The notes under the pieces: model-generated
Seen by the model: the letters and a program-made list of their open reading frames with translations, nothing else
The model's database searches: none
Told to the model about the DNA's origin: nothing
Origin: Candidatus Uhrbacteria bacterium RIFOXYC2_FULL_47_19
GTDB lineage: Bacteria; Patescibacteriota; Patescibacteriia; SG8-24
Assembly: GCA_001791745.1 (NCBI GenBank)
Contig: MGFG01000010.1
Location: 69,573-104,174 of the forward strand
Length of the DNA stretch: 34,602 nt
Direction: 5' to 3'
Made by a program: the position numbers and the translations under genes
Part shown: positions 4,608 through 29,687 of the stretch, piece by piece
Layout: each line of letters starts with the position of its first letter
Position numbering within the stretch: the stretch's first letter is position 1

Positions 4608-5552
4608 TCAACTACCTACGGACCAACCAAAAGCATCAAAAGCCCAAAAAATTAAAGCACCAACATCATCAAATCGAATCTGCTTGGTTGGTGCACCTAA
4701 AACAACAGTCACAATACGATTTCCATCCTGATCTTCTGCTGCGGCTCCAAAACAATAACCAGCTTCTTCTAAATAACCAGTCTTACCACCTAGAAAAGAT
4801 AATGGTGGTCTAGACACCCAGCCGCCAAGCAACTCATCAGTACTCTGTAACCGATGACGGAATCCACTCACTGCATCAAAAGAATATTCCCCCATCACCA
4901 CAATACTATGTATAAAGTCATTTTGAAGACTACGTCTAACTAACAACGCCACATCTCTCGCACTAGATACATTCTCTGGATTCAAACCAGTTGGTTCGAC
5001 GAATCTAGTTTCGGTCATTCCTAAGTCTGAAGCCAACGAATTCATCCGAGCAACAAATTCTTCTTCTGACAATCCGGTCGAACGTGACAGGGTTACTGTG
5101 GCACCGTTGGCCGAAGCGATCAGTGAAGCGTGTAACAAATCGCTAACCCGAATCACCTCCCCTGGTGCAACGTACTGGATACCACCTGAACGCATATCTT
5201 GAGGCAATACCTCGATCGAACTATCTAACGAAACACCAGTGTCCATGACCACTAATGCAGTCATTAATTTGGTGATCGAAGCAATCGGATAAGCTGTATC
5301 GGCATTCTTCTTCATTAACGTCTGACCTGTCCTCCAATCCATAATGTAGGCGGCACGAGAAGAGGTTTCTACTCCGATACGCGCAGAATCCTTTTTGACC
5401 GGTACTCGCACAACACTAGCAATCTGGCGCTCAACGTTGGCTGCTATCGGCAAAAATGAGCGAGACTGCAAACTCAAATCTACCGGCATCATCGCTGGAT
5501 GAGCTTGAGCTGTAGCGACATAAATTGTCAGAGCTAGAAGAAATGTGAACAT
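4608..5552 (-). CDS. dacA: D-alanyl-D-alanine carboxypeptidase (peptidase S11)
   Basis: A penicillin-binding-protein-type serine peptidase that trims the terminal D-Ala from peptidoglycan stem peptides outside the membrane. The 314-residue protein has a signal peptide (residues 1-17). All three catalytic motifs are intact: S92-x-x-K95 (SITK), S147-A-N, and K257-T-G. The C-terminal DacA beta domain and amphipathic anchor are short or absent, so it may be soluble or anchored by its N-terminus. It follows scpB by 5 bases. The gene implies a peptidoglycan wall. Confidence 0.9.
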   Translation of the reverse strand: MFTFLLALTIYVATAQAHPAMMPVDLSLQSRSFLPIAANVERQIASVVRVPVKKDSARIGVETSSRAAYIMDWRTGQTLMKKNADTAYPIASITKLMTALVVMDTGVSLDSSIEVLPQDMRSGGIQYVAPGEVIRVSDLLHASLIASANGATVTLSRSTGLSEEEFVARMNSLASDLGMTETRFVEPTGLNPENVSSARDVALLVRRSLQNDFIHSIVVMGEYSFDAVSGFRHRLQSTDELLGGWVSRPPLSFLGGKTGYLEEAGYCFGAAAEDQDGNRIVTVVLGAPTKQIRFDDVGALIFWAFDAFGWSVGS

Positions 5553-10353: not shown

Positions 10354-11646
10354 CTAAGGCTGAATTCGATTCATTAAACGTGGAAACGGAATTGTCTCGC
10401 GTACATGTTCCAAACCGCAGATCCAGGCCACAGTCCGTTCCAACCCAATACCAAAACCAGCGTGCGGTACTGAACCGTAACGACGTAGATCCATATACCA
10501 GTTAAACGCCTCGCTTGGTAACCCATGTTCGGCGATACGCTTCTCCAGCAAAGACTGATCGTAGATACGTTGCGAACCACCGATTATCTCACCATAACCT
10601 TCTGGAGCCAGTAAATCATCACACAAGGCTCGATCAGGACGTTCCGGATCAGCTTCCATGTAAAAAGCCTTGATTGCCGAAGGATAATGGTGAACAAAAA
10701 CTGGTCGATCGAATTCTTTGGTTAGAATTGTCTCATCGTCACCACCAAAATCATCACCGGATTTAATGTCTGAACCAGCCTTCTGAAGACGCTCAACTGC
10801 TTCGTCATAATCGATGCGTGGAAAGTTGCTTTCAGCAGTTCGTTCGATAGTCGCAATATCACGACCTAACTCTTTAAGTTCATAACTCCGCTCCTCTAGT
10901 ACACGTCCGGCAATGAAAGAGACAAGTTGTTCTTGCAGATCCATGTTTCCCTGCCAATTCATGAACGATGCCTCGGCCTCGAGCATCCAAAACTCAGTTA
11001 GGTGACGACGAGTCTTGGACTTCTCAGAACGAAAAGTTGGACCAAAACAATAAGTTTTTCCGAGAGCGGCCGAGGTGGCTTCCTGATAAAGTTGTCCAGA
11101 CTGTGAAAGATAGGCCTTATCATCAAAGTACTTCACTTCGAACAAATCAGTGGTCCCCTCACAGGCATTTGGAGTAAAAATTGGCGAATCGGTCAGTATG
11201 AAACCTTCTCGTCTCATAAAATCGCGCATGGCAAATTCAATCGAATCACGAACTCGTAGTATCGATGATTGTCGTTCAGAACGAATCCAAAGATGGCGAT
11301 AATTGAGCAAAAAATCTGGACCATGCTCCTTCTTGCCGATCGGATATTCGGCTGCAATTTGTATTGGTTCAACTTCCTCAACCGACAACTCAAAACCACT
11401 AGGCGCACGTTCATCTGTTCGAACGATTCCACGAATAACAACTGATGACTCAATAGTAAGTTGTTGGATGGATTCCCAGGTTTCATCACTCAACTGATCA
11501 CGAACTGCCACACCCTGAATTCTGCCGGTTCCGTCGCGCAATTGAAGAAAGGCGATTTTACCCGAAGATCGTAAATTATGACACCAACCTCTAATCTCTA
11601 CTTTTTGGCTCTCCTTAGCGGAAATTTTTGATATCGAAGTTACCAT
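10354..11646 (-). CDS. asnS: Asparaginyl-tRNA synthetase
   Basis: A class IIb synthetase that charges tRNA-Asn. The 430-residue protein has an N-terminal OB fold (VEIRGWCHNLRSSGKIAFLQ), the AsnRS-type segment LNYRHLWIRSERQ, motif 2 (PTFRSEKSKTRRHLTEFWML) and motif 3 (GFGIGLERTVAWICGL). FEVKYFDDKAYLSQSGQLY points to AsnRS, not AspRS. It has its own promoter at 11671-11699 behind the recO terminator, so it begins the operon running to 4105. Confidence 0.95.
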   Translation of the reverse strand: MVTSISKISAKESQKVEIRGWCHNLRSSGKIAFLQLRDGTGRIQGVAVRDQLSDETWESIQQLTIESSVVIRGIVRTDERAPSGFELSVEEVEPIQIAAEYPIGKKEHGPDFLLNYRHLWIRSERQSSILRVRDSIEFAMRDFMRREGFILTDSPIFTPNACEGTTDLFEVKYFDDKAYLSQSGQLYQEATSAALGKTYCFGPTFRSEKSKTRRHLTEFWMLEAEASFMNWQGNMDLQEQLVSFIAGRVLEERSYELKELGRDIATIERTAESNFPRIDYDEAVERLQKAGSDIKSGDDFGGDDETILTKEFDRPVFVHHYPSAIKAFYMEADPERPDRALCDDLLAPEGYGEIIGGSQRIYDQSLLEKRIAEHGLPSEAFNWYMDLRRYGSVPHAGFGIGLERTVAWICGLEHVRETIPFPRLMNRIQP

Positions 11647-11670
11647 ACTTTCGTTCTGAGTTACCGTTCA

Positions 11671-11699
11671 ATTGTGCCGAAATAAGCTAAAAAAAGCAA
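11671..11699 (-). promoter_or_regulatory. asnS operon promoter
   Basis: On the minus strand, TTGCTT (plus 11694-11699), a 17-bp spacer and CACAAT (plus 11671-11676), 25 bases before ATG 11646. Confidence 0.55.
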
Positions 11700-11727
11700 A
11701 AATAACGCTCGTCTAAATCTGCGGGAC

Positions 11728-11750
11728 AAAAAAAGACTCATTAATGAGTC
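11728..11750 (-). terminator. Terminator after recO
   Basis: On the minus strand, the perfect palindrome GACTCATTAATGAGTC is followed by TTTTTTT. It separates the map-ruvX-recO unit from the asnS operon. Confidence 0.85.
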
Positions 11751-11788
11751 AGCCCGAAACACGAAAAAAAATAATTTAAAACAAATCC

Positions 11789-12538
11789 CTAAAATCTAAC
11801 CGAGCTCATATACTGTAACGGATCAAAACGCGCTTCAAGATTAGAGGTAATCAAAACATCAATGATAAAAGCGACCTGGTCTCTGACTTGATCAGTTAGA
11901 CGTAATAATCCGACTTGAGAAAGTCGTTCACGTCGCAAAAAACGCAAAACCTTTACTGTATCACCCATAATTCCAGGAGTTGGACCAGACCGACATTTTC
12001 GACACTCTATCCCTCCACGTAATACATTTAGCGCGTTACCATCAAATCCAATAGGTTGCCGACAGCCCACACAGACATCGATCTCTAAACCGAAACCTAA
12101 TACATCAAATAATTTAATCATGGCAGCGTTAAAAATTGGACGCTGATCATAGGTGTCACCCTCGTTGTCCATAACCGTCATAAACTCCAACAATAACTCA
12201 AAGATTCGAGGCTCAGACAATTCCCAACGGGTCATGGAATCAACTGCTAGTAGCAGCGATTGAGCAATAGCAGTTCGTTCCAAAGAAGCGGACACCTGAC
12301 GAAACGACAAGTTCAAGTTAGCTCCGGCCAATCGATCCATTTGACGACCTTTGGCCACCATTAGATCAACTACGCCAAAAGCACCCATATGAGGTGACAT
12401 TTTACTACCTATCTTGCGTGTTCCTTTGGCTAGAAGTGAAATTTTGCCATGTAATTCGGTAAAGACGACATATTGACGATCATCCCCTCTAAGACCACGC
12501 GCCTTCAAAACTATGCCCATGTCACGATAGGTAGCCAT
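11789..12538 (-). CDS. recO: DNA repair protein RecO
   Basis: RecO loads RecA onto SSB-coated DNA together with RecR. The 249-residue protein has the N-terminal OB fold (YRDMGIVLKARGLRGDDRQYV...ELHGKISLLAKG) and a helical domain. A four-Cys zinc site is formed by CVGC and CRKC at about residues 156-183. Its ATG overlaps the ruvX stop (TAATG), so the two are translationally coupled. It ends the unit that starts at map. Confidence 0.92.
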   Translation of the reverse strand: MATYRDMGIVLKARGLRGDDRQYVVFTELHGKISLLAKGTRKIGSKMSPHMGAFGVVDLMVAKGRQMDRLAGANLNLSFRQVSASLERTAIAQSLLLAVDSMTRWELSEPRIFELLLEFMTVMDNEGDTYDQRPIFNAAMIKLFDVLGFGLEIDVCVGCRQPIGFDGNALNVLRGGIECRKCRSGPTPGIMGDTVKVLRFLRRERLSQVGLLRLTDQVRDQVAFIIDVLITSNLEARFDPLQYMSSVRF

Positions 12539-12993
12539 TAGAATTCTGTTGTCTTAGGCTGATCCGAGATTCGGTCTACAGCTGAGATCAACCTCTCGAT
12601 ATGAGATTCTAAGATTAGCGCAGCAGCTACAGCATCACGATCAAACTTTTTGCCGCTACTAACGCCATACTCGCGATGCATACGCTCAGCGAGAACCGAG
12701 GTGAAACGTTCATCCTCGGTGCTAACTGGAACCCCAGCTACTGCTGATAATCGACGAACAAAATCCATCACTTGTTCCAGTGTATCTCCACCTTCATGCC
12801 CCCGCAGACTGGTAGGTAAACCAACGACTACACCTTCAACAGCTTCAATCTGAATCTCTGCCGTCACCGCTCTAACGATCGATGCCATATCCTCGGTCGC
12901 AATAGTCTTTAATGGTTCGACAAAAAAAGGCGACGTGTCGCCGATAGCTAGTCCGGTTCGTTTCGAGCCAAAATCAACTCCCATCAAACGCAT
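12538..12993 (-). CDS. ruvX: Putative Holliday junction resolvase / 16S pre-rRNA nuclease
   Basis: An RNase H-like nuclease (YqgF/RuvX) implicated in 16S rRNA 5' processing and, by fold, in junction resolution. The 151-residue protein has the first catalytic Asp in MGVDFGSKRTGLA, then VVGLPTSLRG, DERFTS, and a final Asp in DRDAVAAALIL. ATG 12993 is preferred; TTG 12999 and ATG 12984 are alternatives. It lies 12 bases after map and overlaps recO by one base. Confidence 0.9.
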   Translation of the reverse strand: MRLMGVDFGSKRTGLAIGDTSPFFVEPLKTIATEDMASIVRAVTAEIQIEAVEGVVVGLPTSLRGHEGGDTLEQVMDFVRRLSAVAGVPVSTEDERFTSVLAERMHREYGVSSGKKFDRDAVAAALILESHIERLISAVDRISDQPKTTEF

Positions 12994-13005
12994 AGGCAAT
13001 GCTAA

Positions 13006-13791
13006 TCAAAGCCCAACGTCGGGCAGTGGAGTAAGTACTTCCGTGCCATTCTCGGTGATTGCCAAAGTCACCTCAAAATGAGCTGATGGTTGACCATCTG
13101 CAGTCACTATCGTCCATTCGTCCGGCATTAGTTGAACCTCATCACTGCCGGCGTTAACCATAGGTTCGATAGCTAAAACCATACCAGTCTGGATTCTAAC
13201 CGGACGTAATGACGGATCGAAATAGTTCGGTATCCGAGGCTCTTCATGAACTTCATACCCGACTCCATGACCAACCAAATCCTTCACTGTACTAAAACCA
13301 TTGCGTCGAACATGACGATCTACCCCCTTACCAATGTCGCTAATCCAATTACCAACTATGGCCTTTTCTAAACCGATTAACAGGGACTTGCGAGTAGTAA
13401 TCACTAATTTACGCAGTTTGTCATCGATGCCGCCGACTGGAACAGTAACTGCCATATCAGTACACAGACCGCCATACCACATACCGATATCCAACTTCAA
13501 TATATCGCCGGCATGTACCCGACGTCCCGGAATGGCTGGTGCATGAACCACCTCATGATTTATGCAAGTGCACATAGTCGAAGTAAAGGCACGTTCGTCA
13601 CCATCACTCTGATAGCCCTTAAAAGATGGACGTCCACCGGCTTGACGTATCAATTTCTCTGCTAGTTCATCCAATTCTCGAGTATCAGCCTCAGGACCTA
13701 TTTGGTTCACCACTTGCCCAAGGACCTGTGATAAAACAGCCCCCCCTTCACGTAAAACCTCAATTTCTTTCTTGTTCTTGAGTTTAATCAT
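13006..13791 (-). CDS. map: Methionine aminopeptidase, type I
   Basis: Removes the initiator Met from nascent proteins in the cytosol. The 261-residue protein shows His79 in the CINHEVVHA segment and the five metal ligands Asp101, Asp112, His175, Glu209 and Glu240. In most bacteria map is followed by infA-rpmJ-rpsM-rpsK; here it is followed by ruvX-recO. It is separated from adk by a 224-base palindromic spacer that carries a TATAAT box, so it probably has its own promoter. Confidence 0.96.
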   Translation of the reverse strand: MIKLKNKKEIEVLREGGAVLSQVLGQVVNQIGPEADTRELDELAEKLIRQAGGRPSFKGYQSDGDERAFTSTMCTCINHEVVHAPAIPGRRVHAGDILKLDIGMWYGGLCTDMAVTVPVGGIDDKLRKLVITTRKSLLIGLEKAIVGNWISDIGKGVDRHVRRNGFSTVKDLVGHGVGYEVHEEPRIPNYFDPSLRPVRIQTGMVLAIEPMVNAGSDEVQLMPDEWTIVTADGQPSAHFEVTLAITENGTEVLTPLPDVGL

Positions 13792-13847
13792 GCAATTAGT
13801 TTAAGGAAGAAAATAGTATAAAACAAGCCGGTCAAACACGGTTAAGG

Positions 13848-13853
13848 ATTATA
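13848..13853 (-). promoter_or_regulatory. -10 box (TATAAT) for map
   Basis: A perfect TATAAT on the minus strand, 56 bases before ATG 13791. No clear -35; the upstream side is a GC-rich hairpin. Confidence 0.4.
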
Positions 13854-13856
13854 GAT

Positions 13857-13931
13857 CCCCACGGGCAAGCCCGTGGTACTACTCCAGCACAAGCTTCGCT
13901 TGACCCATTCAACCACGCCCAAGGGCGTGGT
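13857..13931. repeat. Triple-hairpin palindromic cassette between adk and map
   Basis: Three inverted repeats in 75 bp: CCACGGGC-aa-GCCCGTGG, CAAGC-ttc-GCTTG, and CCACGCCC-aa-GGGCGTGG, the last followed on the plus strand by TCTTTT. The outer hairpins share CCACG/CGTGG ends. It may be a REP-like or small non-autonomous element, or a terminator pair for adk. It is more GC-rich than its surroundings. Confidence 0.6.
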
Positions 13932-14015
13932 CTTTTGGGTTAGTTGATAAAAACATCCAAAAATCAGCAAGTTTGATCACTATCACCATACCGAAACATC
14001 AACTAAAAACAGATG

Positions 14016-14672
14016 CTAATCCCTAAAATTCTCCATGATCGACTTAAAAACCTCGGTAATTGATTGTTCTCCATCAACCTCACGAAGCAATCCCCGTTCA
14101 CGGTAATACTCAATAAGTGGCGTAGTCTCCCTATTGTAGATAGCTAACCGTCGACTAATTGCCTCGGGTTTATCATCAGACCTATGGACCAATTCCGAAC
14201 CACAACGATCACACTTATCCGGATCGTGTTTGGATGGATGTAAATCGACGTGAAATTTAGTTTCACAATCTCGATTAGTGCAAACCCGCCGTCCTGAAAG
14301 TCGTCTCACGGCCTCCTCATCAGAAAGACGGATATAAACCACATCAGTCAACATCCGTCCGTTCTTGGATAACATTTCAGTTAGAGCCTCAGCTTGGTCC
14401 ACATTACGTGGAAACCCATCCAAAATAAAACCATCCCGAGCGGCTGGCGCATCCATCCAATTGGTAACAACCTGACAAACTATGTCTTTAGGTACTAAAT
14501 CACCCTGTTCCACATAACGAGCGATCTCATGACCAAGTTCCGTCCCTTCTTCTATTTTTGAACGAAAAAGTCGACCAGTGGAAACGGTAGGCAAAAAAAA
14601 CTCCTTAGCTAACATCTCGGCCTGTGTTCCTTTTCCAGACCCCTGAACCCCGAGCATGACTATGTTTCTCAT
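14016..14672 (-). CDS. adk: Adenylate kinase, zinc-type LID
   Basis: Interconverts ATP + AMP and 2 ADP. The 218-residue protein has the P-loop GVQGSGKGT (8-16) and the AMP-binding DGFPRN segment (85-90). Its long LID contains Cys131, Cys136, Cys154 and Cys157, which should bind structural zinc as in Gram-positive enzymes. It starts 6 bases after the presenilin-like gene, in the conserved secY-adk-map context. Confidence 0.96.
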   Translation of the reverse strand: MRNIVMLGVQGSGKGTQAEMLAKEFFLPTVSTGRLFRSKIEEGTELGHEIARYVEQGDLVPKDIVCQVVTNWMDAPAARDGFILDGFPRNVDQAEALTEMLSKNGRMLTDVVYIRLSDEEAVRRLSGRRVCTNRDCETKFHVDLHPSKHDPDKCDRCGSELVHRSDDKPEAISRRLAIYNRETTPLIEYYRERGLLREVDGEQSITEVFKSIMENFRD

Positions 14673-14678
14673 AAAGCA

Positions 14679-15551
14679 CTAGATAATAAGGAAAAAAGTT
14701 AAATAACCAATTACTGAACCAAGAGCCAAAGGCGGTAGAATCGACGTTAGACGAGGCCATGAAGTAGTTATATGCGTCAGAACCAAGAAGAGCGTCGCTC
14801 CCAACATCACTGATCCAGCTGCGGCTAACCCATAATGCCACATAACTGAGGCAGCGAACATTGTTGGTAACAACAATTCACCGATTCCCCGAAAACCAAA
14901 ATCATTAACATTGCGATTGGCCTTCCTCACTCTAACCAAAAAATTAGACCAATAAAAAGGAAAAAAAAAGTAAATAAATGATCGACGGGGCGGTAATTGA
15001 TGTGAAAATAGGACCGACCTACCGGAAAGATAAATTATCATCACATCATAGATAGCAACCAAACCCAAGACTAGTAATAACACCCAGGACTGAAAGGCCG
15101 GTCCAATCGCAGCACAAATTCCAGCCAAACCTAAACAAAGTACTAAATCGTAAAGCATAACCCAGGGATTGGAGTAGTAAACGACCACCGCCAGACAAAA
15201 AACGACTGTGCCTATAGCCGGACCAAAAAGTACATTAACCCCGAAGGTTAGACCAAAAATAATTGCTAGAAACATAACTGTTCCTAGTAGTTTAGTACTC
15301 CGTACGGAATTCATGGTTAGAAATACCAAAGCCATGACTCCAACCAAGGTCGTCAGAATCTTCCAGTTAGAGTATTGAGACGACACCGACGTTCCAATGA
15401 GCGACACCCCGGACTTAGAAGCTGTCACCATCACACCGGCCGCACACATCATGACTAGCAAACAAATCAAAGATTGCCAGAAAATAATTCCTTTAGAAGG
15501 ACCATTAGTCGGAGCAATAATACTATCTTCGTTCAGATCATTCTCTGGCAT
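14679..15551 (-). CDS. Presenilin/signal-peptide-peptidase-like intramembrane protease
   Basis: A 290-residue protein with about eight to nine membrane segments. Three signatures of the archaeal/bacterial presenilin homologue family are in the right order: Tyr168-Asp169 in LGLVAIYDVMIIYLSGRSV, a GxG motif at 222-225 in RGIGELLLPTMFAAS, and a PAL-like segment PPLA (273-276). The second catalytic motif is GIGE instead of GxGD, so the usual second aspartate is Glu225. The enzyme may have altered activity or be inactive. Families with this fold cleave transmembrane substrates such as leftover signal peptides, which fits its position between secY and adk. Homology is inferred from motifs. Confidence 0.7.
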   Translation of the reverse strand: MPENDLNEDSIIAPTNGPSKGIIFWQSLICLLVMMCAAGVMVTASKSGVSLIGTSVSSQYSNWKILTTLVGVMALVFLTMNSVRSTKLLGTVMFLAIIFGLTFGVNVLFGPAIGTVVFCLAVVVYYSNPWVMLYDLVLCLGLAGICAAIGPAFQSWVLLLVLGLVAIYDVMIIYLSGRSVLFSHQLPPRRSFIYFFFPFYWSNFLVRVRKANRNVNDFGFRGIGELLLPTMFAASVMWHYGLAAAGSVMLGATLFLVLTHITTSWPRLTSILPPLALGSVIGYLTFFLII

Positions 15552-15594
15552 ATCGAATATAATTCAAATTGTCTTGCAATAGACGCCGGCTGAA

Positions 15595-15615
15595 CACAAA
15601 AACCCTATCAAGGGT
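15595..15615 (-). terminator. Possible second terminator after secY
   Basis: On the minus strand, ACCCT-TGAT-AGGGT is followed by TTTTTGTG. Confidence 0.4.
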
Positions 15616-15631
15616 ACGAGCGAAAGACAAC

Positions 15632-15666
15632 GACAAACAAAGATGCTACCTGATTAGGCAGCATCT
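15632..15666 (-). terminator. Terminator or attenuator after secY
   Basis: On the minus strand, stem AGATGCT-g-CCT / AGG-t-AGCATCT is followed by TTGTTTGTCG, between secY and the presenilin-like gene. Confidence 0.6.
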
Positions 15667-15711
15667 AAACTTCTATCAAAAAATACTTTTAGACAACTTG
15701 ATAGCCCTAAT

Positions 15712-16989
15712 CTATAACGACTCGTACTCTCGCATGGTTAGCTGCGAATTGATCTGATTGACGATCTCAATCACTACAGACACAACGATTAGTAGACTTG
15801 TTCCACCGATAGCCATGGCCTGAGTACCGAGCGATTGCTGCATAACAATCGGTAGAATGGCAATGGCCGCCAAAAAGAAGGCACCAGCCGGCATAATCCG
15901 ATTGATGGTGCGTTGGATAAATTCGGCCGTCGGGCGTCCTGGACGAATTCCTGGAACATAACCACCTTGCTTTTGTAGATTCTCTGCAACCCGGTCAGGA
16001 TGAAAAATTACCGCCGTGTAGAAATAAGTAAATCCAAACACGAAGACAAAATAGAGAATGCCGTAGATCAACTGATTTTGAAACAGTTCAATGGTCTTCT
16101 GTGCAACCAACGCCAACCATTGAGTCTTAGCGTGCACAAAAAACTGACCGATCATTGGAGGCAATAAAATAATCGATATGGCGAAAATGATCGGGATAAC
16201 TCCAGCCATGTTGACTCGAAGCGGCAAAAAAGTCTCGGCACCGCCATAAGACCGATTGCCTCGCATCCTCTTAGCATAGACAACTGGAATGTTCCTCTGA
16301 CCCTCAGAAATCAAAACGACTCCGGCGATGGTGGCCAAAGCAATGGCAACATAAGCCACCCAAACTACGACTTGAGATGAATCATAAGTAACTAACGCCT
16401 GCTGAAGAGTGGTCGGCATACCAGAAATAATGCCAGCAAAAATCATGATAGATATACCATTGCCGATCTTTCGCTCCGAAATCAGCTCACCGATCCACAT
16501 CAAAAACACAGTGCCAGTGGTCATGGTAATAGCCATCATGGCCATTTGGAACAATGTTACACTCGGGGCGATGATACCATTACCGGTCTGACGTAGAAGT
16601 GAAATCATGGCATAGCCCTGCAACAATGCTAGTGGCACTGTCAGCAAGCGAGTGTACTGATTAATCTTCTCCTGTCCAGACTGACCTTCCTTCTGCATCT
16701 CTTCAAGACGCGGAACGATCATTGCTAACAATTGAAAAATAATCGAGGCAGTGATGTAGGGTCCAACTCCCAAGGCTACAATGGAGAACGACTCCATAGT
16801 TCCTCCAGAAAAGACATTAAACATGCCGAGAACCTGATTCTGATCGAAAAAGTCCTTTAGAGCGACCGTATCCACTCCGGGTATCGGGATATGGGCCGCG
16901 ACCCTAAAAATGACCAACATCAGGAGGACAAAAAGGACGCTGTAACGCAGGTCCGTCGTCTTCCATATTTGCCGCAGAATCTTCAGCAT
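15712..16989 (-). CDS. secY: Protein translocase subunit SecY
   Basis: The pore-forming subunit of the SecYEG translocon in the cytoplasmic membrane. The 425-residue protein has ten predicted membrane helices, an N-terminus typical of the family (RYSVLFVLLMLVIFRVAAHIPIPG), a plug region GGTMESFSIVALGVGPYI, and the conserved cytosolic loop RMRGNRSYGGAETFLPLRVN. It is separated from rplO by 120 bases that hold a candidate promoter, so it may be transcribed both with the ribosomal cluster and on its own. Confidence 0.97.
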   Translation of the reverse strand: MLKILRQIWKTTDLRYSVLFVLLMLVIFRVAAHIPIPGVDTVALKDFFDQNQVLGMFNVFSGGTMESFSIVALGVGPYITASIIFQLLAMIVPRLEEMQKEGQSGQEKINQYTRLLTVPLALLQGYAMISLLRQTGNGIIAPSVTLFQMAMMAITMTTGTVFLMWIGELISERKIGNGISIMIFAGIISGMPTTLQQALVTYDSSQVVVWVAYVAIALATIAGVVLISEGQRNIPVVYAKRMRGNRSYGGAETFLPLRVNMAGVIPIIFAISIILLPPMIGQFFVHAKTQWLALVAQKTIELFQNQLIYGILYFVFVFGFTYFYTAVIFHPDRVAENLQKQGGYVPGIRPGRPTAEFIQRTINRIMPAGAFFLAAIAILPIVMQQSLGTQAMAIGGTSLLIVVSVVIEIVNQINSQLTMREYESL

Positions 16990-17064
16990 ACAGTGGTTAC
17001 AAATTGATTTACCATTATCCCTGACTGAGACCCGTTTTACGGACTGAAATCAGTGATAGCCAAT

Positions 17065-17094
17065 ATGATAGCACGTAGTCGTATTCGCAGTGAA
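17065..17094 (-). promoter_or_regulatory. Candidate internal promoter for secY
   Basis: On the minus strand, TTCACT (plus 17089-17094), an 18-bp spacer and TATCAT (plus 17065-17070) preceded by TGC (extended -10). A palindrome ACTGATTTCAGT lies downstream in the leader. Confidence 0.5.
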
Positions 17095-17109
17095 CGAAAA
17101 AATCAAGAG

Positions 17110-17550
17110 TTATTTGATCTTTCCGCCAGCCTCTTCGATAGCCTTTCGAACACTGGCCGTTAACAAACAGCCAGAGACATGTATTTTCTTTTTAATCTCT
17201 CCACCACCAACGATTTTAACTCCGTTACGATGACTAGAAACCAATCCCTTCTTCGCTACGGAAGCTGGAGTTACACTCTCGCCAACCGCAAAAGCCTTAG
17301 CCAAATCACCTAACTTAACACGAGCAGGCTTCGCCTTCAGACTCTTAAAGCCACGTAATTTTGGAGTGGCCAACATAATCTGACGAAAACCGCGCAACTT
17401 GCGACGGTTGCGTCCACCGGTCCGAGCAGCCTGTCCTTTGGTGCCGCGTCCAGCGGTCGTACCCTTTCCAGAGGCGTTACCACGACCGACCCGCTTAGAC
17501 TTGGTCCGCGAACCGACAGCAGACTTTAAATTGTGCATCTCGAGTGCCAT
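17110..17550 (-). CDS. rplO: 50S ribosomal protein L15
   Basis: A 23S rRNA-binding protein of the large subunit. The 146-residue protein has the basic Gly-rich N-terminal extension (KRVGRGNASGKGTTAGRGTKG) and the C-terminal GGGEI/KKIHVSG-type domain of L15. AAGGA precedes the ATG. It directly follows rpsE by 12 bases; rpmD (L30), which usually lies between them, is absent. Confidence 0.96.
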   Translation of the reverse strand: MALEMHNLKSAVGSRTKSKRVGRGNASGKGTTAGRGTKGQAARTGGRNRRKLRGFRQIMLATPKLRGFKSLKAKPARVKLGDLAKAFAVGESVTPASVAKKGLVSSHRNGVKIVGGGEIKKKIHVSGCLLTASVRKAIEEAGGKIK

Positions 17551-17562
17551 ATATTCCTTTCT

Positions 17563-18198
17563 TTACTCAGCCTCTTCAACCTGACTCTCGACGGTCGGGA
17601 CGACGCCTTGCTCCAGCTTAGACTTTTTTGCCGAATTTGGACGCTCCTTAATGGTCTTAATACTGCTTAGAGCAGCCATGGTTGCCTTGGCGTTGTTGAT
17701 CTTGTTGTTCGAACCGAGAATCTTAGCTACTACATTCGGTACCCCGGCCAACTCTAATACCACACGAACCGCACCACCAGCTTTGACACCAGTACCTTCT
17801 GGAGCTGGTTTGATAATCACCTGAGCGGCTGCGAACTTACGACGAATCTCGTACGGTATTGTCTCATTAACAAAAGGCACTGTAATCATCACCTTCTTGG
17901 CTTTATTGGTGGCCTTGCTAACAGCCTGCTGTACATCCAAACCCTTAGCCACACCATAACCAACGCGCCCCTTGCGATCCCCTAGCACAACACAAGCTCG
18001 AAAACGCATGCGCTTACCACCCTTAGTGACACGGGTTACCCGAGCCAATTCCAAGATGCGAGAATCAAACTCTCCTTTTTCTTCTGACCGACGATTGCGT
18101 GGCGGACGACCTCCACTAGGTCTACCCCCACGTCCAGCTGGGCTACCCGGCCTCTGCTGGCCTTCGCTCGGTGCGTTGTTCTGCTGCTTATTATCCAT
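17563..18198 (-). CDS. rpsE: 30S ribosomal protein S5
   Basis: A small-subunit protein at the mRNA entry and decoding region. The 211-residue protein starts with an unusually long Gly/Arg/Pro-rich segment of about 45 residues (SPAGRGGRPSGGRPPRNRRS), followed by the double-stranded-RNA-binding fold (RVTKGGKRMRFRACVVLGD) and the C-terminal domain (VPNVVAKILGSNN). An acidic tail of about 25 residues follows. ATG 18198 is chosen; TTG 18207 would add three residues. Confidence 0.95.
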   Translation of the reverse strand: MDNKQQNNAPSEGQQRPGSPAGRGGRPSGGRPPRNRRSEEKGEFDSRILELARVTRVTKGGKRMRFRACVVLGDRKGRVGYGVAKGLDVQQAVSKATNKAKKVMITVPFVNETIPYEIRRKFAAAQVIIKPAPEGTGVKAGGAVRVVLELAGVPNVVAKILGSNNKINNAKATMAALSSIKTIKERPNSAKKSKLEQGVVPTVESQVEEAE

Positions 18199-18209
18199 AA
18201 TGTCCAACG

Positions 18210-18593
18210 TTAAAACGAAAGGCCGTTATCTCGAGCACCTTGAGCCAGAGCGGCGACCCTGCCAGCGAAAGAAAATCCGCCACGATCGAACACCACCGAC
18301 TTAATTCCGGCCTTGACTGCCCTCTCCGCTAGAAGCTTACCGATCGCGTAAGCTGCCGCTGTCTTACCTTTGCGCCCCCCTTCGTCCTCAACAATCTTGA
18401 GGTCAATGCCGTGCTCATCCGCAGATATCAAAGTACGGCCAGATACATCGTCGATCAACTGGGCATAAATATGTTTGAGACTCCTAAAGACCGCCAATCG
18501 TGGGCGTTCGGCCGTGCCAGAAACCTTGGCTCGGATGCGACGGTGGCGGCTAATACGGGCCTGCCTCTTCTTTGCTACTTTAATGTCTGCCAT
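18210..18593 (-). CDS. rplR: 50S ribosomal protein L18
   Basis: A 5S rRNA-binding protein. The 127-residue protein matches L18 in [29 protein letters not shown], and [18 protein letters not shown]. Start context CATATG without a Shine-Dalgarno sequence. It lies between rplF and rpsE as in the canonical spc operon. Confidence 0.95.
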
Positions 18594-29470: not shown

Positions 29471-29534
29471 TGAGCTAGCGAAGGACGAAGACAGGTGCAA
29501 TGCGCCCGCAGCGAAAACCGCAGCTACTTTTTAC
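29471..29534. repeat. 64-bp direct repeat, distal copy
   Basis: Identical over 64 bases to 29624-29687 and 153 bp from it. It contains the right end of hairpin element copy 2 and a copy of the fusA stop-codon region. Confidence 0.9.
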
Positions 29535-29549
29535 AATCCGATCTTCAAA

Positions 29550-29660
29550 GGCGGGTTTCGATACGGGATGCAGTGTGTTTGTCTGGAGTCCGTCGCGACG
29601 CGAGCCGTACTAGACAAGTACGGTGAGCTAGCGAAGGACGAAGACAGGTGCAATGCGCCC
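29550..29660 (-). repeat. Shared hairpin element, copy 2 (after fusA)
   Basis: Plus-strand flanks GCGGGTTTCGATACGGGATG, then TGTG and TGTCTGG; the other end is GAAGACAGGTGCA...CGCCC. The core pairs as GTCC/GGAC, CGC/GCG and CCGTAC/GTACGG. Confidence 0.65.
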
Positions 29661-29687
29661 GCAGCGAAAACCGCAGCTACTTTTTAC
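29624..29687. repeat. 64-bp direct repeat, copy overlapping the fusA 3' end
   Basis: Includes the last two codons (AAA AAG) and the TAG stop of fusA. Identical to 29471-29534. Confidence 0.9.

Follow-up and report, generated by a model that had tools for sequence, protein, structure and literature searches.

In GxGD proteases, a water molecule is activated between the two catalytic Asp residues, and A22-type enzymes are not known to use Glu at the second catalytic position. On the minus strand of the window, that is, the whole 34,602-nucleotide stretch of DNA analysed here, an intact ORF of 290 aa encodes a multi-pass membrane protein of the presenilin/PSH family (PF06550-like) in which the second motif reads GIGE (residues 222-225). 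The question raised by this locus is whether the protein is a catalytic variant or a membrane protein that no longer cuts. Our preferred answer, held as probable though far from certain, is that an archaeal-type presenilin/PSH protease, whose ancestral place in this order of Parcubacteria lies between secY and adk, degenerated in one genus.

Family membership and genomic setting

Searched alone, the window protein had no match in Pfam, NCBIfam or PDB sequence searches, and nothing came from PF06550 or NF041679; a weak Pfam match to CASP_dom (E 0.04, below the cut-off) is noise. The same-genus orthologue, from Parcubacteria group bacterium CG1_02_58_44 (G009, L002/L083; hereafter the sister), had no PF06550 match in the Pfam scan in which several homologues from outside the genus matched this archaeal-type presenilin/SPP family at E values of 5e-14 to 7e-20. 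A profile of 51 relatives, built without the window's genus, retrieved both genus members (E 3e-31 for the window protein, 2e-36 for the sister, at a nominal Z of 10000), and none of 200 shuffled controls was listed against it. In addition, the profile of the whole set matches archaeal PSH (4HYC) at E 9e-35, with the GMGD of 4HYC aligned to the GIGE of the window protein.

An AlphaFold model built on the 53-sequence alignment (pLDDT 86.8, pTM 0.86) adopts a predicted presenilin fold, and its best Foldseek matches in the PDB are PSH (4y6k/4hyg/4hyc), then PSEN1 in gamma-secretase and SPPL2a. With archaeal PSH/MCMJR1 (4HYC, 4HYG, 4Y6K; PF06550; NF041679), the window protein shares the predicted fold (TM score, normalised by query length, of up to 0.61), the sequence family, the YD and G-x-G motifs, and, with MCMJR1, an L-P-P-L before the last transmembrane helix; it differs by Glu in place of the second Asp, and identity in the structural alignment is 17-19%. 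Signal peptide peptidase/SPPL2a (A22B) and presenilin (A22A) are similar in fold and YD motif. However, the window protein has neither their canonical PAL nor their second Asp, and identity falls to 11-15% in structural alignments. A search of a viral structure library gave one giant-virus signal peptide peptidase, without bearing on this case. Profile, fold and gene order agree, hence the resemblance to presenilin exceeds chance, and membership by descent in the PF06550/archaeal-type presenilin (PSH) family is secure. Profile and fold rule out both a fortuitous similarity and membership of some other membrane protein family. The presenilin/SPP identity proposed in the earlier note, for which it had suggested a comparison with archaeal structures, is thus borne out. 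No second PF06550 copy was found in the genome, in a search that is weak for diverged copies; the PF06550 model misses the window gene too.

The position of the gene in the secY-adk interval, also noted earlier, was confirmed (Table 1). About 160 nt containing a terminator-like hairpin follow secY, and 6 nt separate the gene from adk, so that it probably shares a transcript with adk but not with secY, as judged from spacing and a consensus hairpin. A signal peptidase I gene is present in the genome. Elsewhere in the window, a perfect 64-nt direct repeat (29471-29534 and 29624-29687, 153 nt from start to start) closely follows fusA, the gene for elongation factor G.

Table 1 Features of the presenilin-like locus, in window coordinates.
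Feature	Coordinates	Strand	Basis
Presenilin-like gene	14679..15551	-	ORF, family profile and fold match
First catalytic motif, Y168-D169	15045..15050	-	Invariant in the 53-sequence alignment
Glu225 codon GAA, second catalytic Asp position (GIGE for GxGD)	14877..14879	-	Sister species has GAC
True PAL columns, residues 270-272 (S-I-L)	14736..14744	-	Family alignment; sister species Q-V-L
TM9, residues 272-288 (LPPLALGSVIGYLTFFL)	14688..14738	-	17/17 identical to sister species; 12 codons differ synonymously
secY, upstream neighbour	15712..16989	-	Gene order
Terminator-like hairpin with a T-rich tail, in the spacer that follows secY	15641..15666	-	Consensus match only
adk, downstream, starting 6 nt past the TAG that ends the presenilin-like gene	14016..14672	-	Gene order
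map (encodes methionine aminopeptidase), follows adk; also retained by relatives	13006..13791	-	Gene order

The second catalytic position and the PAL region

Of the features that define a GxGD diaspartyl protease, the window protein has the YD motif and lacks both the second Asp and the PAL before TM9. YD at 168-169 and Glu225 were read in the same way in the earlier note. The sister gene, of equal length and in the same secY-gene-adk-map position, encodes GIGD. More generally, apart from the window protein, every readable homologue, 69 in total, has Asp at the second catalytic position (class and phylum, sister included; three genes, one of them masked, one truncated and one split, were not counted separately). 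In the secY-adk interval, each close orthologue carries Asp, so Glu is not a conserved catalytic variant; this is the outcome that the earlier note had named as speaking against its proposal. A conserved GxGE subfamily is ruled out by the Asp in every other readable homologue. The Glu state was found in a single genome, and the genus comprises two known species in the collections searched; two contig scans for further species returned just the known sister. From these alignments, Glu225 is read as a change private to the window genome and not a family feature.

Only one other second motif is irregular. L072 (G128:C6, about 55095-55949), a distant homologue adjoining adk, has GAID for GxGD, with Asp kept and the PAL region disrupted; it is perhaps an independent erosion of the same family.

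The PAL motif requires a correction. The earlier note had seen a clear PAL-like motif at residues 273-276, which read PPLA, and the family alignment rejects this assignment. The true PAL columns, 270-272, hold P-A/G-L in nearly all other members, and the loop that contains most of them (263-271) has none of its nine residues in common between the window protein and the sister. MCMJR1 is active although it has PPL at that place and no canonical PAL (PMC2947513); a missing PAL by itself is therefore no proof of inactivity.

Erosion, rate and remaining constraint

Among the 26 positions conserved in at least 80% of the 51 other sequences, 14 persist in the window protein and 17 in the sister. The fraction kept by the window protein (0.54) is the lowest of the 53, against a median of 0.96 for the others; a few distant lineages are almost as low (0.63-0.72) and nonetheless keep the Asp. 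Losses common to both genus members include F93, G255, P268 and the first PAL residue, P270. Lost in the window protein alone are A172, V173 and D225, the first two of which the sister keeps. At positions conserved in at least 60%, six differ solely in the window protein and one solely in the sister.

The presenilin-like gene has also diverged more than its surroundings. The two species share 62% identity in this protein, against 83-96% for nine neighbouring genes, and dN is 0.26, against 0.02-0.09 (3-16 times). Overall dN/dS is well below 1, with dS at or near saturation, so that these ratios are rough. Relative to map+adk, the genus stem branch of the presenilin-like gene is 4.1 times as long and the two tips 3.1-3.2 times, the mean pairwise ratio for other members being 1.9. 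Some other terminal branches are also about 3 times as long, and some nodes are weakly supported; hence the rate acceleration in the genus is moderate. Base composition differs as well: third-position GC over window positions 10354-18593 is about 0.36-0.54, against 0.66-0.78 in the sister (L043), a gap that, given the 83-96% identity of most proteins, corresponds to a recent base-composition shift.

Some constraint remains. Both species have an intact ORF of equal length, TM7-TM9 are the most conserved segments between them, and the identity of TM9 despite 12 synonymous codon differences indicates that purifying selection has continued. On this codon comparison, purifying selection is seen to act, or to have acted until recently, on the fold and especially on TM9, and not on the substrate/active-site loop. 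Such constraint fits both a recent catalytic loss and a retained non-catalytic role.

The latter would make the protein a maintained pseudoprotease, in which catalysis was lost and a non-catalytic role kept or gained, perhaps in binding transmembrane segments close to SecY. The equal-length ORF, the conservation of TM7-TM9, with many synonymous changes in TM9, and the kept gene position all suit such a role. However, the sister has both Asp residues, so that a shared non-catalytic role is not indicated; Glu occurs in one genome, and recent catalytic loss would show equal constraint. We regard this explanation as unlikely, though worth keeping in sight. iRhoms are the rhomboid-family counterpart of such a pseudoprotease, and the stronger description, that of a catalytically dead bacterial presenilin-family protein beside secY whose fold is kept by selection as a prokaryotic iRhom analogue, is a shade more doubtful. 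If true, it would offer a natural snapshot of a pseudoenzyme arising from an active sister.

That the population in fact carries Asp, and that the Glu codon is a rare allele or a single-base error of the metagenome assembly, is improbable. A single transversion (GAY to GAA) in one genome, with Asp in the nearest relative, is what an error would look like. Nevertheless, A172 and V173 are also lost in the window protein alone, which suggests real relaxation and not an isolated miscall, and quality estimates for the assembly are 100% completeness and 0.15% contamination.

Catalysis and the distribution of the family

Asp-to-Glu replacement at the catalytic positions has been studied in two relatives. 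MCMJR1 carrying D162E or D220E gives no cleavage (PMC2947513), and D385E in human PS1 abolishes both endoproteolysis and gamma-secretase activity (PMC5669866, PMC1513133). By analogy with these inactive mutants, the window protein is most likely inactive or nearly so, although the mutated MCMJR1 and PS1 were otherwise unadapted proteins, and a Glu enzyme with compensating changes might behave differently. An active intramembrane protease with an Asp/Glu pair, in which local changes accommodate the longer Glu side chain, is very improbable: YD and both GxG glycines are kept, and the changes at A172, V173 and the PAL loop of the same protein could be compensatory, but D-to-E abolishes activity in both MCMJR1 and human PS1 and none of the 69 other homologues has Glu. 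No paper linking presenilin to 'GXGE' came up in a literature search, and a search for presenilin or SPP in Patescibacteria gave nothing relevant in the library covered. Between the two possibilities raised in the earlier note, the mutants and the lost conserved positions thus favour a non-catalytic protein and disfavour a catalytic variant.

Under the preferred reading, that of a degenerating protease, active relatives would cut transmembrane segments through the Asp pair of YD and GxGD; their substrates may include signal-peptide remnants left after SecY translocation. Clearance of signal peptides near SecY by these relatives is plausible from the gene position. The PAL loop and other class-invariant positions would have been lost first, in the common ancestor from which both known species of this genus descend, and the second catalytic Asp would have changed to Glu later, in the window lineage alone. 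The window copy most likely still folds in the membrane and yet no longer cuts, or cuts at a trace level only. Persistence of the ORF might reflect a recent loss, a useful fold or co-transcription with adk. If correct, this is an ordinary and clear case of enzyme-family erosion in a reduced genome, PAL going first and the catalytic Asp next.

Counting the genome of the window itself, homologues are present in 9 of 10 family genomes and in 11 of 12 from the order. In the class they occur in 59 of the 286 genomes sampled, and in the phylum sample in 17 of 380. Archaeal-type presenilin homologues are thus frequent in this Parcubacteria class, with the secY/adk location in this order. Both neighbours flank the gene in 12 rows and adk alone in 11, where the contig or flank often ended; 49 rows, mostly from other families, have neither secY nor adk within the flanks examined. 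No copy was detected in genus g4 of the same family (G003), where the secY-adk interval is about 280 nt; complete gene loss there would extend the erosion series. This interval (L044, G003:C23, about 4785-5070) holds repeated GTCATTCCGG...CCGGAATCC-type elements. At two other loci, L077 (G004) and L081 (G006), the presenilin-like gene is followed by a tandem pair of adk-like genes.
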